64,000 bases of DNA. Source: Halomonas sp. JB37 (GTDB lineage Bacteria > Pseudomonadota > Gammaproteobacteria > Pseudomonadales > Halomonadaceae). Shown here one piece after another: positions 50,801 to 55,840 of this stretch. The notes beneath the pieces were generated by a model. That model did not search any database. It had not been told where the DNA came from and was given only the letters and a program-made list of their open reading frames with translations. The stretch covers positions 1,798,001 through 1,862,000 of the forward strand of contig NZ_NRGW01000001.1 in NCBI RefSeq assembly GCF_002332255.1. Reading direction: 5' to 3'. Position 1 is the stretch's first letter, and each line of letters begins with the position of its first letter. Made by a program: the position numbers and the translations under genes.

Positions 50801-51220
50801 AATAAGACATTTGTAACCGACCAGCTGATTAACTGGTCGTTGTCGGATAACGTGACGCGCGTGGTGCTCACCTATGGCGTGGCTCACGGCTCGGATATGC
50901 CCAAGGTGCACCAACTACTGCGCCAGGCTGCCGATGAAAACCACCGAGTGTTAACCGACCCGGAGCCGCAGGTTTTTTGCTTAAACTACGGGCAGCACAG
51001 CCTTAATTTTGAGCTGCGTATTTTTGTTAATGACTTGGTCGACCGCCTGTTTGCCGCCGATGAAGTCAACTGCCGGGTAGATGAGCTATTCCGTGAAGAG
51101 AATGTTCGCGTAGCGTTTGAGCAGATGGATGTATGGTTACACCGAGATCAGGGCGATGCGGTTAAGGTACAGTCTGCAGCGCGGCCGTCCTCAAACGTGC
51201 TACGCCCTGATCCAAGCTAA
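47858..51220 (+). CDS. Large mechanosensitive channel, MscK/MscM (KefA/YjeP) type
   Basis: About 1120 residues. A signal peptide (KWLVTCLFLLAISSTAISQAYA) leads a long periplasmic coiled-coil region (about 40-470), followed by about eleven membrane helices and the C-terminal MscS core: VAALSVGLGFGLQEIFANFISGLIILFERP, NLHGTVSRIRIRATTV and IPNKTFVT. Releases solutes on hypoosmotic shock, which suits a halophile. No ATG is available; the GTG at 47858 is preferred, with GAGG ten bases upstream, over a TTG at 47822. MscK and MscM cannot be told apart here. Confidence 0.9.
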   Translation: MVRYAGKWLVTCLFLLAISSTAISQAYASLQADALDGVPEQAELASRLAQLESNEGALTNQQASDKKALEAALDAYERLVSVDERLNALDSRVEQAPELLASLQRDLSDAQEASQQLSVANLSDRPLDELETMQTQAVVKLQQLQSQLAEVNSQLLAAQTLPERAQQNIAETLQRAESLRRQHDEREALLADRQLSALNDAALIQLRLERILADREVSFNQRELSANSRLRELAQQRRDVLMLQIDYQEQQLGMLQGVIDQQRRLASEQAIADAARDDPLIAAGHPVVLQVQQTNQTLSQELLRATDRANSIVRENIEAQRQLEHVRQLQRSLNEQIDAIRGSQLLSRILREQRQSLPPLSVRRDLQDEIADLRLKQFDLVRQRDQLRQSAQFAETRLEEAGIEATPGLVDSLSRLYQSRRELVEQLEQSYGSLLSAAIELQLNQQQLLITTSELRETIDEQLFWVANSRPLDFGWLRQLPHNLLLEWSEGEWRAILPTRWQGLSWEVLKGAPIFLLGIVLMGLRRKIKTRLADIHSQIGRLKSDTQLHTPKAVLFNALLALPGPLALAGIGIGLLEVAGPLATSVAPGLLQLALSWGVVAWVRRLLVADGVAERHFTWSPQYTARLRQLLGGFGVALVPVIAIATMSDEMETPLALRPVAFALLSFGLLAMSWWLAQLILAHIPVFGVRLFRLLLGLAMAAVPLMLLGLVVWGYEYTALRLVGRFAITLYLLGLWVVVEATLVRSLAVAARRLAYRRALARRRAQVQEGAEGGLEVVEEPPLDMEQINSQSLRLSKLIVLIGFSALLYLVWADLLSVLGYLDHVSLWESQEGDLVDSVLSISDVFTALLVVAITFIMARNLPGLLEVMVLSRLSLKQGSAYAISSLLSYTIVGTGVVMGLATLGVSWDKLQWLVAALSVGLGFGLQEIFANFISGLIILFERPIRIGDTITIGNLHGTVSRIRIRATTVTDFDRKEIIIPNKTFVTDQLINWSLSDNVTRVVLTYGVAHGSDMPKVHQLLRQAADENHRVLTDPEPQVFCLNYGQHSLNFELRIFVNDLVDRLFAADEVNCRVDELFREENVRVAFEQMDVWLHRDQGDAVKVQSAARPSSNVLRPDPS

Positions 51221-51975
51221 GCTTCTGTCGCTGCATGTAAAAGAAACTCGCGATTGCCGTCGCTGCCGGTGATAGGGCTCTCCTGCCAGTGGCGTATGGT
51301 GAGCCCGCAGTCGTGACAAGCGCTTCGAATGCTAGCCTCTACATCGGCAAAAAGTGTCGCATCGCGCACTACGCCGCGTTTGTCCAACGCGCCGGGGCTT
51401 AACTCAAACTGCGGCTTAACCAGTGAGATTAACTGCCCGTCAGGCGGTAATAGCGCGGCAACCTCGGGCAAAATTAGCGTTTGGGATATGAACGAAACAT
51501 CCATTATGGCAACGTGTATTGGCTGGTCCGCAAGAACGTGAATGAGCGGCGTTGCGCTGCTCATGTGCCGTGCGTTGAGGCCTTCCAGACAGGTAACGCG
51601 TGGATCAGTACGCAGCTGTTCTGCAAGCTGGCCATGGCCGACCTCCACGCCAATGACATGGCGAGCACCGAACCGTAGCGCACAGTCAGTAAAGCCACCG
51701 GTTGACTGGCCAATATCCAAAACAACGCAGCCGTCAAAGCGAAGGCCAAGCGCTGTAAGCACTCCTTCCAGTTTCAAGCCTGCGCGGGATACGTAGCGCT
51801 CCTCGGGGTCATCTTCAACGATAAAGCGAGTAGTGTCGGGCCATTTTTCAGACACTTTAGTGAGTACTCTGCCACTGTTAGCTAGGCTGACCCGGCCATG
51901 GCGAATCAGTCGTTGGGCGCGCGTACGTGAGTTGGCCAGCCCTAGGCTGACCAACAGTTGATCAAGTCGTATCAT
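51217..51975 (-). CDS. tlyA: TlyA-family rRNA methyltransferase
   Basis: 252 residues: N-terminal S4 RNA-binding domain (IRLDQLLVSLGLANSRTRAQRLIRHGRVSL) and a FtsJ-like Rossmann methyltransferase domain (VLDIGQSTGGFTDCALRFGARHVIGVEVG). TlyA 2'-O-methylates 16S/23S rRNA; the historic hemolysin label is doubtful. Tail-to-tail 4-base overlap with the mechanosensitive channel gene. No clear Shine-Dalgarno. Confidence 0.9.
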   Translation of the reverse strand: MIRLDQLLVSLGLANSRTRAQRLIRHGRVSLANSGRVLTKVSEKWPDTTRFIVEDDPEERYVSRAGLKLEGVLTALGLRFDGCVVLDIGQSTGGFTDCALRFGARHVIGVEVGHGQLAEQLRTDPRVTCLEGLNARHMSSATPLIHVLADQPIHVAIMDVSFISQTLILPEVAALLPPDGQLISLVKPQFELSPGALDKRGVVRDATLFADVEASIRSACHDCGLTIRHWQESPITGSDGNREFLLHAATEA

Positions 51976-52016: not shown

Positions 52017-54065
52017 CTAGGGTGCATTGGGGGCTAAAGATGCATTTGGTCCAGCATCTGCCTGGAGTTCGGTAGGCGGCAAGCGCGCAGCGCCCCAGCT
52101 ACGGTGTAGGTAGTGTTTGACGCTTTCAAGCTCCTCGCTCGTCACAGAGACTATTTCACCACGCTCTAGAGGATCATAGTGATAAATATACAGCCGCGAG
52201 ACGAAGCGCTCAAAAGGTAGCGATGCTTCGCCAAAGCGCTCACCGTTGCCAGACGTACTGACGAGAACGCCGTTACCCCAGTCCTGCCCACTGTCATTGT
52301 TGGGGTTATAGAAATAAATCCGCATGACGTCTGAAGGATCGAGAGACGCACGCAATATAGTAATCGCATGCCAGCCGATGAAGCGCGCTGCGCTATCGGT
52401 AATGGCAATACCCGCAGGCTGCGGATGAATCAGCGGCTGATTGCCATTGTAATAAGGATGATAGCAGGCGTAGAAATGGCGCACGAAATCATCCACATCG
52501 ATTAGCTGGCCCGTCGCTACATCGACATTAATACGAAAACCACGCCCCGACCACCAGCCGTGGAACTCAGGGTTTACCCAGCGGTGAGGGTCGCCTTCTC
52601 GGCCAATGCAACGACGACCCATTTCTGCATAGATACGATCCAGGTGGGGCACCACAATCAGCGACACCGGATCGAGATCCATCGGTAGCTCAGTGGCAAC
52701 GCCAGACAGGCTTTCCATTGATGAGATGGCCTGCCCCTCAAAATGCATAATGATTTCGTCATCGCGTGCTGCCCACGCCACCATCTGTAGCAAATAGTCG
52801 GGGTCGTTATAGGCCCACATCGAAAGTGCGCGGGCAGATTGGCAGGTGGGGTTATTACCCTGGCCAACCCCCAGCGGCAATCCCAGCATGCACAGCACGC
52901 CTTCAATGAGACGCGCTCGAGGAGAAACGCTGTCGCCGTAAGCGATGTTAAGCCGAGACTGCGCCCACTCAGATAGCGGCAAGTTCAGCTGGCGCCACAT
53001 TGCTGGCGCGACCGGCGGCTGGTAAAGAATGCCTCGCTCCAACATTAACGCAAGCCCATAGACCGCCTGCGCCGTAGCAGGATAAACGCCGCCACGAATC
53101 AGCGCCTGGACCAGTTCGCGGTAACACAACAGGCAGTCGCGGCCGGTAGATGAAAGGCCCAGTGCTTCAGAAAGCAAGTGGTCGCCTTCTTCCAGCAAAT
53201 GTCTGAGCAGCACGGTATGGTAAGGCGATACTAGCCCGGTATCATGCATCGCTCGGGCAAAGCCGGTGGATTCAGCCTGTAAAGCGGCTTGATCCATGTG
53301 TTCAAGTCGTTCGCGATAAACGTCGACACCGGGATCTTCGCGACAGGTTTGGGTGGTGCCATAGAGAGAACTGACCAGCCGATCGGCGCCTTGGCCGCTA
53401 ATGCCAAGATCAATCGCAGGATTAGCCTGGCACAGTGCAATCTGGGTAATCATCTGTTTGATCGAATCAACTTGGATCGGACGCTGCTTCAAAATGCGCC
53501 AAATCTCTTCAATCAGTTGATCAATGATGTGTTCGTAGCCAATTCTGTCGGCTAAATGCTGGAAAAGCTGGCGGGGAATAGTGGCCAGCCGGCCTTGGGT
53601 TTCGCGCTCCGCTTCGCTCGGTGCCAAAAAAAGCAGCCACAGATTAATGGCCATGACTTGCGTCAGATAATGGTGGGCATTCTCTTTGGAAATGAGCGAA
53701 TGCTCGACATCGCCCTTGGCCACAGCGAGGAGCCTGAGTTCGCTTAATGCCTCAATCACGAGGACATTGGCATCCGCGCTTTTTAGCGCGAAGGTTGTCA
53801 GCGTAGGCACTAAATATTGAGGTGTTTCCCAATCCGAGCCTAAGAATATGCCAGCATCCTCATACGCTTTCGCGCGAGATTCTAGCGCATCACAACCGCC
53901 ATCCTGTAGTAGCACGCGCCGCGCAGTGTCGAGTACGCGCGGCAGCTTAGCGGGCTTTGAGAACGCGGGCGCCTGCGTAAGCAGGCGCACAGCATCATCA
54001 AATTTGCTCAATAGTGCACTGAGCTTACTATCTTCCTGAGAAGACGCGAGTTGATCTGTCTTCAC
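52017..54065 (-). CDS. Unrecognised 682-residue protein with candidate papain-like triad
   Basis: I do not recognise a named family. Residues 1-390 are mostly alpha-helical and repeat-like, without signal peptide or membrane segments. The second half shows a candidate papain-like cysteine hydrolase/transglutaminase arrangement: C408 in GNNPTCQSARALSMWA, H566 in FIGWHAITILR and N587 in IYFYNPNNDSG. The helix after the Cys, the HAxxI strand and the following strand ending in Asn-Pro-Asn are typical of that fold, and the H-to-N distance of 21 fits. It is encoded 30 bases downstream of an ATP-grasp ligase on the same strand, so they probably work together. Possible roles, all inference: processing, transglutamination or unmodification of a conjugated product. 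Confidence 0.65.
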   Translation of the reverse strand: MKTDQLASSQEDSKLSALLSKFDDAVRLLTQAPAFSKPAKLPRVLDTARRVLLQDGGCDALESRAKAYEDAGIFLGSDWETPQYLVPTLTTFALKSADANVLVIEALSELRLLAVAKGDVEHSLISKENAHHYLTQVMAINLWLLFLAPSEAERETQGRLATIPRQLFQHLADRIGYEHIIDQLIEEIWRILKQRPIQVDSIKQMITQIALCQANPAIDLGISGQGADRLVSSLYGTTQTCREDPGVDVYRERLEHMDQAALQAESTGFARAMHDTGLVSPYHTVLLRHLLEEGDHLLSEALGLSSTGRDCLLCYRELVQALIRGGVYPATAQAVYGLALMLERGILYQPPVAPAMWRQLNLPLSEWAQSRLNIAYGDSVSPRARLIEGVLCMLGLPLGVGQGNNPTCQSARALSMWAYNDPDYLLQMVAWAARDDEIIMHFEGQAISSMESLSGVATELPMDLDPVSLIVVPHLDRIYAEMGRRCIGREGDPHRWVNPEFHGWWSGRGFRINVDVATGQLIDVDDFVRHFYACYHPYYNGNQPLIHPQPAGIAITDSAARFIGWHAITILRASLDPSDVMRIYFYNPNNDSGQDWGNGVLVSTSGNGERFGEASLPFERFVSRLYIYHYDPLERGEIVSVTSEELESVKHYLHRSWGAARLPPTELQADAGPNASLAPNAP

Positions 54066-54095
54066 GGTGACTCCTTATCCCAGCATTAGCAGGGA

Positions 54096-55319
54096 TTATA
54101 CATAGAAGTCGAGATCTTCTTGGCGTTTTAGCAGATCGCGAATCGTATGCGCGTCCTCGCCTTTAAAGTAGATCAGACCCCAATGGGTACCAAACGCGGT
54201 GCGCTTGGTCACGGTTTCTTCTACCGGTGAGGTTAACTCATGAGACTCAAAGTACGGGTGATCTTCCGTTTCTTCCGGGATTTCCAGGCGGCTGACCACT
54301 CGGCGACGTGGGTAAACGCCAAAGCAACCGGCAAAGCCATTGGCATCGACCACTTCTTTTGGGAAGAAGTTTGCCACTTCTTCTTTGCTGCTTTTCGGGT
54401 CAAATACCAGCATAGAGGCTTGGTAGGCATTGAAGCCGTAAACCCGCTCAAGCAGTTCAAATACTTTGAAGCCCGGCGGACGGTAGGCAACCTCGCCAAA
54501 GTACATTTCACCGTCGCTAGTGACAAAGTATTCCGGATGGATCAAGCCAAACTCAATATCAAAGGCTTTGATAAGCTTTTCGATTTGTTGAGTAATTTGT
54601 TCTCGGTATTTTTCAAGCTCTGGAGACGCGGGCACAAACACTGAATAGCCCAATGTTACGTATTCAGAGATGTTCAGGAAGGCGATTTTACCATCATGAA
54701 TCCACGCTTCGACAGCAAATTCCCAGCCGTCCAGGTGTGATTCCATCAGCACCGGGAACTCTTCGTCGGGGATGGTATCTACTTCATCCGGCGTACGAAT
54801 AACACGGTGGCCTAGGCACCCCGCTTTATCAAAGGCCTTGAGGTGAATCGGGTCGTTGGGGTCACCATCTAGCTTAAGCAGCGTTTGGTTAACCCGCTTG
54901 AGAAAGCGCACAACGTCTTCTTTGTCGTGGGCTTCTTCAAAGATACCTACGCGGATGCCGCCTAGCTGTGCACGGCGCTTCATGAGTGCCTTATCGCGGA
55001 GCAGTAGCGACTGACCGTAAATGCGCGGATTATCAAGCAGCAAAGAGTTGATAGCGCCCGCCCACTCAACGGTTTCTTCGTAGAGCGGAATGGCAACATC
55101 AACGCCTTTTTCTTTGAGTGTCTCGGCAATCTCAATGGAGCGATCATTGAGGCGTTCAAAGTTCCAGGGCACGTAGGGAATATTGTGTTGTTGGCAATAC
55201 TCTTCAGCCCAATCAGGTGCAACGACAATGTAGCGACGGTCAAAATTTTCGGCCGCTTCAATCGCATTGAGGCTCCAGCCTAACAGGGCGATATAGCCCT
55301 TATTTGGATCCTTTTGCAT
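54096..55319 (-). CDS. ATP-grasp ligase of unknown substrate
   Basis: 407-residue stand-alone ATP-grasp enzyme: N-terminal Rossmann-like preATP domain (YIALLGWSLNAIEAA, YIVVAPDW), the ATP-binding region with LKAFDKAG and FPVLMESHLDGWEFAVEAW, and the metal-binding end HPEYFVTSDGEMYFGEVAYRPPG where E276 is the conserved acidic ligand. Such enzymes form an amide or ester via an acyl phosphate. ATG 55319 was chosen because AGGAG lies 7 bases upstream; the frame is open to 55379. Next gene is the papain-like protein; divergent neighbour is DUF1820. Substrate not predictable, and no peptide precursor was seen in the window. Confidence 0.85.
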   Translation of the reverse strand: MQKDPNKGYIALLGWSLNAIEAAENFDRRYIVVAPDWAEEYCQQHNIPYVPWNFERLNDRSIEIAETLKEKGVDVAIPLYEETVEWAGAINSLLLDNPRIYGQSLLLRDKALMKRRAQLGGIRVGIFEEAHDKEDVVRFLKRVNQTLLKLDGDPNDPIHLKAFDKAGCLGHRVIRTPDEVDTIPDEEFPVLMESHLDGWEFAVEAWIHDGKIAFLNISEYVTLGYSVFVPASPELEKYREQITQQIEKLIKAFDIEFGLIHPEYFVTSDGEMYFGEVAYRPPGFKVFELLERVYGFNAYQASMLVFDPKSSKEEVANFFPKEVVDANGFAGCFGVYPRRRVVSRLEIPEETEDHPYFESHELTSPVEETVTKRTAFGTHWGLIYFKGEDAHTIRDLLKRQEDLDFYV

Positions 55320-55510: not shown

Positions 55511-55840
55511 ATGGCGGCCAAGCCGATCTACCGTGTAGTGGTTCACCAGCAGGGTGAAATATGGGATTTATACGTCAGAGAAATCTTTCAAAGCGAACTC
55601 TGGGGCTTTATTGAAGTCGAGGAGTTTGTCTTTGACGATGCTAGCCGTGTAGTGGTTGATCCTACGACTGAGAAGCTACAGCGAACTTTCGAGGGCGTTA
55701 AGCGAAGTTATCTGCCGTTGAATGCTATTGTTCGCATCGATGAAGTAGAGCGCGAAGGCCCTTTGAAAGCAGTCAAAACCGATGCGCGGGTAGCAGAGTT
55801 CCCCCGTCCCTTTCCGTTGCCACCGCGCGGAGAAGGTTAA
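55511..55840 (+). CDS. DUF1820 family protein
   Basis: 109-residue cytoplasmic protein of a family confined to proteobacteria, with the conserved PIYRVVFxNQGEVYELYARxV-like N-terminus (here IYRVVVHQQGEIWDLYVREI) and GFIEVEEFVF followed by DPTTEKLQRTFEGV and YLPLNAIVRIDEV. Function unknown. AAGAGGAATAGG lies upstream of the ATG. Divergent from the ATP-grasp gene. Confidence 0.88.
   Translation: MAAKPIYRVVVHQQGEIWDLYVREIFQSELWGFIEVEEFVFDDASRVVVDPTTEKLQRTFEGVKRSYLPLNAIVRIDEVEREGPLKAVKTDARVAEFPRPFPLPPRGEG

Follow-up and report, generated by a model that had tools for sequence, protein, structure and literature searches.

ATP-grasp ligases form amides through an acyl phosphate, and papain-like enzymes open or transfer amides through a thioester. 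Both activities meet in glutathionylspermidine synthetase/amidase and in phytochelatin synthase, where a ligase and a papain-like amidase or transpeptidase act on one amide. Here, we describe a two-gene locus in which an ATP-grasp protein is encoded next to a 682-amino-acid protein (hereafter "hydrolase" for short) that is probably a papain-like enzyme cutting or transferring amide bonds. The locus lies in a 64,000-nucleotide stretch of a Halomonas sp. JB37 chromosome (the window; G000:C1:1798001-1862000, with G denoting genomes and L loci), a setting that we call halomonad-like because of how its nearest homologues are named. Unlike in the two systems above, the proteins here are separate and the ligase is of another subfamily. 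Both enzymes fall into known superfamilies; the pairing is a new variation on the ligase-plus-protease theme. No description of this pair was found in titles or abstract openings of the open-licence literature, subscription papers lying outside that search.

The closest described relatives in gene organization are the RimK-RimB and RloA-RloB-RloC systems of Pseudomonas, in which, according to PMC12239564, an ATP-grasp ligase is likewise encoded with a protease. The same source reports that, in medium of low osmolarity, Pseudomonas aeruginosa mutants lacking the RloA proteases fail, and that deletion of rloC, the ATP-grasp gene of the same operon, rescues these mutants. The proteases of RimK-RimB and RloC-RloA are aspartic and retropepsin-like, whereas the partner here is papain-like, so the present pair falls outside that type. 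In addition, RloA is secreted, whereas the 682-amino-acid protein has no signal peptide discernible by eye and is presumably cytoplasmic, and the Rlo operon includes RloB, whereas no RloB-like membrane protein was seen by eye beside the pair in the window.

The ligase and hydrolase genes were found only together in the genomes compared. Among 416 distinct genomes, 58 carry both, 358 carry neither, and none carries one alone, a pattern which makes it very likely that the two genes work as a single, undescribed unit. The total combines class, family, and order samples, which share G000, G272, G171, and G025, and leaves uncounted G697, a weak hydrolase-only match of 117 residues (6.3e-5) in the order sample. 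In the class sample, the hydrolase (E <= 1e-3) and the ligase (E <= 1e-60) occur in one and the same set of 8/274 genomes; in the family sample, both occur in the same 35 of 61 genomes (both E <= 1e-60). For the order of G171, the ligase was detected in 17/85 genomes (E <= 1e-60) and the hydrolase in 18/85 (E <= 1e-3), 17 of these being identical genomes. The phylum sample was searched with the hydrolase only, and the ligase was read from hydrolase neighborhoods: 11 of the 398 genomes have the hydrolase, and in all 11 a ligase lies within 1.5 kb. Another class has the hydrolase in 3 of 190 genomes, each time with an adjacent ligase (L107, L167, and L168). Presence is mixed even within genera of the family sample, where G951 has both genes versus neither in G907, G926, and G940, and G910 has both versus neither in G931 and G944.

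Copy numbers vary. Two ligases accompany one hydrolase in G000, G314, and G573, three hydrolase matches accompany one ligase in G937, and G949 has two of each. In the order sample, a single ligase goes with two hydrolase matches in ten genomes, whereas G733 has three matches, two of which are contig-end pieces. In G912, the ligase frame is broken and the hydrolase match starts late.

The pair is also largely conserved as neighbors, a check that the first-pass annotation of this DNA had proposed for its two-gene unit and that the unit has passed, being adjacent in most named loci and inseparable in genome content. In 69/80 loci from named genomes, a full-length ligase lies upstream of the hydrolase on the same strand, 14 to 234 bases off. 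The remaining 11 comprise L013, with 391/407 ligase residues aligned; L080, cut by a contig end; five loci with a C-terminal ligase remnant only (L020, L022, L023, L035, and L085); three with no ligase nearby (L021, L055, and L070); and L065, whose ligase is approximately 7.5 kb away on the other strand. The remnants, of roughly 40 to 105 residues and 60 to 70% identity, sit directly upstream of the hydrolase gene. All nine genomes behind the remnant-only, no-ligase-nearby, and L065 loci carry a full-length ligase elsewhere (9/9), and in G963, G964, and G966 that ligase adjoins another hydrolase copy. G966, which was reached through L085, is possibly a mixed bin, as it shares a contig with a binned Halomonas record (L068); one of these two bins may be mixed (L275 and L068).

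Among distant genomes, the arrangement itself changes. The pair is convergent in, for example, L104, L150-L156, and L158-L161, tandem in L107, L162, L167, and L168, tandem with the hydrolase first in L105, and divergent in L108 and L109. The ligase is absent from the examined stretch in 15 of 54 distant loci, which mostly hold a second hydrolase paralogue, and all 15 are in genomes that carry a ligase (including G399). No third gene recurs beside the pair outside close relatives, as judged from the 33 largest neighbor clusters of the 54 loci.

The 682-amino-acid protein has no match among Pfam, NCBIfam, or PADLOC families, and sequence and profile searches against solved structures returned chance-level matches only. 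It has 2,669 homologues at E <= 0.001 among 8,000 candidates scored. An AlphaFold2 model of high confidence (predicted local distance difference test [pLDDT], 92.9) combines a helical N-terminal part with a C-terminal domain. For the latter, the best solved structural matches are calpain cores, with moderate fold scores; the helical part has only middling structural matches, to helical-repeat proteins. The first-pass annotation had nominated C408, H566, and N587 as a triad, and these residues are correctly placed, their codons having been read at the positions in Table 1. Together with Gln402, they are invariant in 238/238 aligned sequences, a set made up of the window protein and 237 of 240 listed homologues (3 of <=600 amino acids were left out). 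Variability of C408 or H566, which the annotation had named as grounds for refutation, is thereby excluded. The Gln-Cys spacing is 6 in all 238 sequences and the His-Asn spacing 21 in all, with 155 to 160 residues between Cys and His. The 2,669 homologues and the invariance of Cys408, His566, and Asn587 in the 238 aligned sequences make the observation more than chance.

A glutamine six residues before the cysteine, followed by the order Cys-His-Asn, is the arrangement of papain. The predicted enzyme thus shares with clan CA peptidases (calpain, staphopain, and papain) the Cys-His-Asn order with its preceding Gln, and a papain-like fold at moderate scores, with calpain at the top of the structural list. 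It differs from the clan CA families in lacking a sequence-family match and in having its own large helical N-terminal region; no named family of the clan (e.g., calpain C2 or papain C1) reached cut-off for the window protein or ten relatives, and we claim none. The earlier suggestion of a papain-like fold is thus upheld by the catalytic residues and, at moderate scores, by the fold, whereas its transglutaminase option is not favored, given that the residue order and the Gln six before Cys follow the papain pattern. One homologue (P0187) bears the label ZorC in its UniRef name, a label unsupported by Pfam or PADLOC. PADLOC anti-phage defense models gave no family for either window protein or for three hydrolase relatives.

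The ATP-grasp protein narrowly exceeds the gathering score of PF13535 (27.7 versus 27), the only family at threshold, and PF13535 is matched by 40/40 of its relatives (E <= 0.001). Its predicted structure is of moderate confidence (pLDDT, 68.6). Among the matches listed, L-amino-acid (dipeptide) ligases fill the top five structural rows, followed by PurK-type enzymes. Two candidate Mg-binding glutamates (Table 1) and Arg280, four residues past Glu276, are invariant in the 40 relatives and align with a Glu/Glu/Arg set of the L-amino-acid ligase 3vot. By closest fold among these matches to the predicted model, and by these catalytic residues, the protein groups with L-amino-acid ligases and probably builds amide bonds. 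It has, however, only 11 to 15% identity to the described members RizA (4wd3), BL00235 (3vot), and BacD/YwfE (3vmm, 3wnz, and 3wo1). Within its own family it is strongly conserved (75 to 88% identity in a set of 15). A profile comparison of the ligase with the 682-amino-acid protein gave no match.

Table 1. Features of the ligase-hydrolase locus, in window positions except for the last row, which gives positions within other loci
Feature	Position	Strand	Basis
ATP-grasp ligase, 407 amino acids, L-amino-acid-ligase-like, type I copy	54096..55319	-	ATG at 55319, stop ends at 54096
ATP-grasp Glu263 codon, candidate Mg ligand	54531..54533	-	Invariant 40/40; aligns with Glu of L-amino-acid ligase 3vot
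ATP-grasp Glu276 codon, candidate Mg ligand	54492..54494	-	Invariant 40/40; aligns with Glu of 3vot
Papain-like cysteine enzyme (putative hydrolase or transacylase), 682 amino acids	52017..54065	-	Open reading frame: GTG at 54065, stop ends at 52017; no Pfam/NCBIfam/PADLOC family; AlphaFold2 model; calpain cores top structural lists
Alpha-helical N-terminal region, residues 1-390	52896..54065	-	Model secondary structure; identity to 117 distant homologues averages 34%
Papain-like catalytic region, residues 391-640	52146..52895	-	Model, structural matches; identity to those 117 distant homologues averages 55%
Gln402 codon, candidate oxyanion-hole residue, six before Cys408	52860..52862	-	238/238
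Cys408 codon, candidate nucleophile, opening helix 408-420	52842..52844	-	238/238; AlphaFold2 model
His566 codon, within strand 562-575	52368..52370	-	238/238; AlphaFold2 model
Asn587 codon, right after strand 581-586	52305..52307	-	238/238; AlphaFold2 model
Ligase C-terminal remnants	L020:9655-9968, L022:9849-9968, L023:9848-9967, L035:9829-9966, L085:9625-9747		

Given that the two genes were not found apart yet vary in order and orientation, a shared molecule is the best explanation, the product of one enzyme being the substrate of the other. With a shared molecule, either enzyme lacking its partner would be useless or harmful. We regard it as an evenly balanced proposition that the pair is an obligate writer-eraser module in which both enzymes act on the same amide and hydrolysis is the main step of the cysteine enzyme. 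The shared substrate, the direction of the cysteine step, and the role of the N-terminal region are what we infer here. The ATP-grasp protein would use ATP to activate a carboxylate as an acyl phosphate and then join it to an amine, most likely linking one small molecule to another, for example two amino acids. Cys408, assisted by His566, Asn587, and Gln402, would attack the same kind of amide to give a thioester, and the acyl group would then be released or re-transferred, the eraser role being taken as most likely. The helical N-terminal part may recognize the substrate or the ligase, and the product would be used in salt adaptation. The weakest links of this proposal are the function itself, the moderate fold scores, and the occurrence of ectC, HDAC-like, polyamine transporter, and ovoA neighbors in only one or two genomes. 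If it is true, a papain-like family without a curated model would join the known cases in which a protease offsets an ATP-grasp ligase. The rlo operon is a worked example of such a balance, with another protease class and likewise in osmotic tolerance (PMC12239564). The exact co-occurrence also yields a genetic prediction: deletion of the ligase should suppress deletion of the hydrolase.

The foremost alternative, to which we assign a real but minor chance, is a two-step synthesis in which dipeptide-like blocks come from the ligase and the cysteine enzyme acts as a transacylase, joining or remodeling such units. Phytochelatin synthase is a papain-like enzyme that acts as a transacylase on glutathione. 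The same enzyme classes and exact co-occurrence would serve this scheme equally, the ligase does resemble dipeptide ligases, and paralogous cysteine enzymes sharing one ligase (G937 and Salinisphaera-type genomes) fit different downstream steps. However, we know of no comparable system with these two families, and the sequence does not separate hydrolysis from transfer. We think it unlikely that the pair is instead a protein-tag module, in which amino acids would be attached to a protein by the ligase and trimmed off again by the cysteine enzyme, as with RimK and RimB. The sizeable helical N-terminal region might serve to bind a protein, sequence conservation of the ligase is very high, and ATP-grasp and protease pairs of this type are known (PMC12239564), but the ligase model resembles free-amino-acid ligases and then PurK-type enzymes among the matches listed, a capped list that leaves room for RimK further down.

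The module probably serves salt adaptation, and we infer a link to osmotic balance. Many bacteria of marine and halophilic type carry the pair, ectoine-producing halomonads among them, and the genera in both homologue lists are mostly from habitats that we take to be marine or saline; the exceptions among the names are two binned genomes labeled Pseudonocardia and Actinophytocola. Ectoine synthase (PF06339) is over cut-off in 39/274 genomes of the class sample, including 8/8 of those bearing the pair (hypergeometric, 8.7e-8, assuming independent genomes, although these are related). Since 31 of the 39 ectoine-synthase genomes are without the pair, ectoine making does not require it. Nor does the pair belong to an ectABC operon, as the ectC of G000 lies elsewhere, at C1:2419188 (L282). 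The ectC gene is in an ectABC-like run in G000, G158, G269, G160, G181, G202, and one G171 locus (in the last two, EctA and EctB were named by eye). It is doubtful, though conceivable, that the pair is a small-peptide or amide system of salt-adapted bacteria in which the amide, maybe of an amino acid with an ectoine-pathway or polyamine amine, would accumulate or mark targets under salt stress, the papain-like family being an obligatory eraser or transferase and neither gene being tolerated alone.

An ectC gene adjoins the ligase in 2 of 132 distinct ligase neighborhoods (L105 and L267) versus a rough chance expectation of about 0.1, which is suggestive only; the expectation is rough arithmetic from about 1.3 ectC per 3,600 genes and two sides. 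In L105 (342-5437), the hydrolase, an HDAC-family deacetylase, the ATP-grasp gene, and ectC follow each other on one strand. L105 is from a binned genome, and its hydrolase is 78% identical to one labeled Nitrococcus. In L267 (9016-10828), a gene for a 131-amino-acid EctC is convergent with a type II ATP-grasp gene and is absent at the matching place in L274. By genome, the ectC of G260 lies on the same strand 104 bases downstream of the ligase, and that of G962 (Halomonas salicampi, from which the L035 record comes) is convergent at 109 bases from the ligase and absent from the matching stretch of G965. According to PMC5924519, solitary ectC genes have no settled function. The G260 ectC shares 90% identity with its counterpart in an ectABC-like run of G171 and is therefore not clearly of a special solitary kind.

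These ectC genes beside the ligase (L105 and L267), the polyamine-type transporter genes of L110, and the HDAC-family genes of L105 and L106 would suit conjugation of a polyamine or ectoine intermediate, analogous to glutathionylspermidine synthetase/amidase. This reading is quite improbable, as no such neighbor recurs widely, ectC adjoins so few ligases, and no third gene recurs outside close relatives. That the genes simply travel as one mobile unit with unrelated reactions is more than doubtful: patchy presence within genera would agree with it, but order and orientation change and partners are co-retained even when unlinked, which hitch-hiking does not explain, and the ligase was found in only one plasmid record (a 1.8-Mb Halomonas record; E <= 1e-30) and in no phage record, where nothing matched at E <= 1e-10.

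At the window locus itself, both open reading frames were confirmed on the minus strand, and the gene coordinates, shared strand, and 30-base spacing (54066-54095) first reported for them are borne out. Purine-rich, ribosome-binding-like stretches precede both start codons (by eye). A divergent gene of 109 codons lies upstream of the pair (55511-55840). Downstream of the 682-amino-acid gene by 41 bases is a TlyA-like gene (51217-51975, minus strand; named by eye), and in the five halomonad loci listed, a gene of this kind also adjoins the hydrolase. No RNA element reached the gathering score between 46000 and 62000 of the window; in L186, L104, L107, L108, L162, and L081, the RNA elements were a tRNA and an FMN riboswitch only, neither beside the pair.

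The second, type II ATP-grasp copy of G000 encodes 435 amino acids with 80% identity (L186:9924-11231) and sits between BCCT-type transporter and OvoA genes (L186:8095-14020; G000:C1, approximately 746394-752319), with integrase/transposase-like genes, named by eye, nearby. The OvoA gene matches TIGR04344 at 671 bits, and OvoA is over cut-off in 13/274 class genomes, including 4/8 bearing the pair. An ovothiol function was rejected, since OvoA lies beside the type II ligase in 1/7 of the neighborhoods first examined (L186 and L247-L252) and in none of those added later; L248 ends at a contig end, and L271 repeats L249. The BCCT transporter, near the type II ligase in G000 and G314 only, was kept as a hint, as were the polyamine-type transporter of L110 and the HDAC-family neighbors of L105 and L106; an aliphatic amidase near L104 is a single case. 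In L110 (4941-10870), the solute-binding and permease genes of an ABC transporter, presumably of the polyamine type, directly precede a hydrolase paralogue without a nearby ligase. Finally, a TTGG...CCAA-like stretch, recognized by eye, is shared upstream of type II ATP-grasp starts (e.g., L186, L247, L108, and L109) and is possibly a regulator site.

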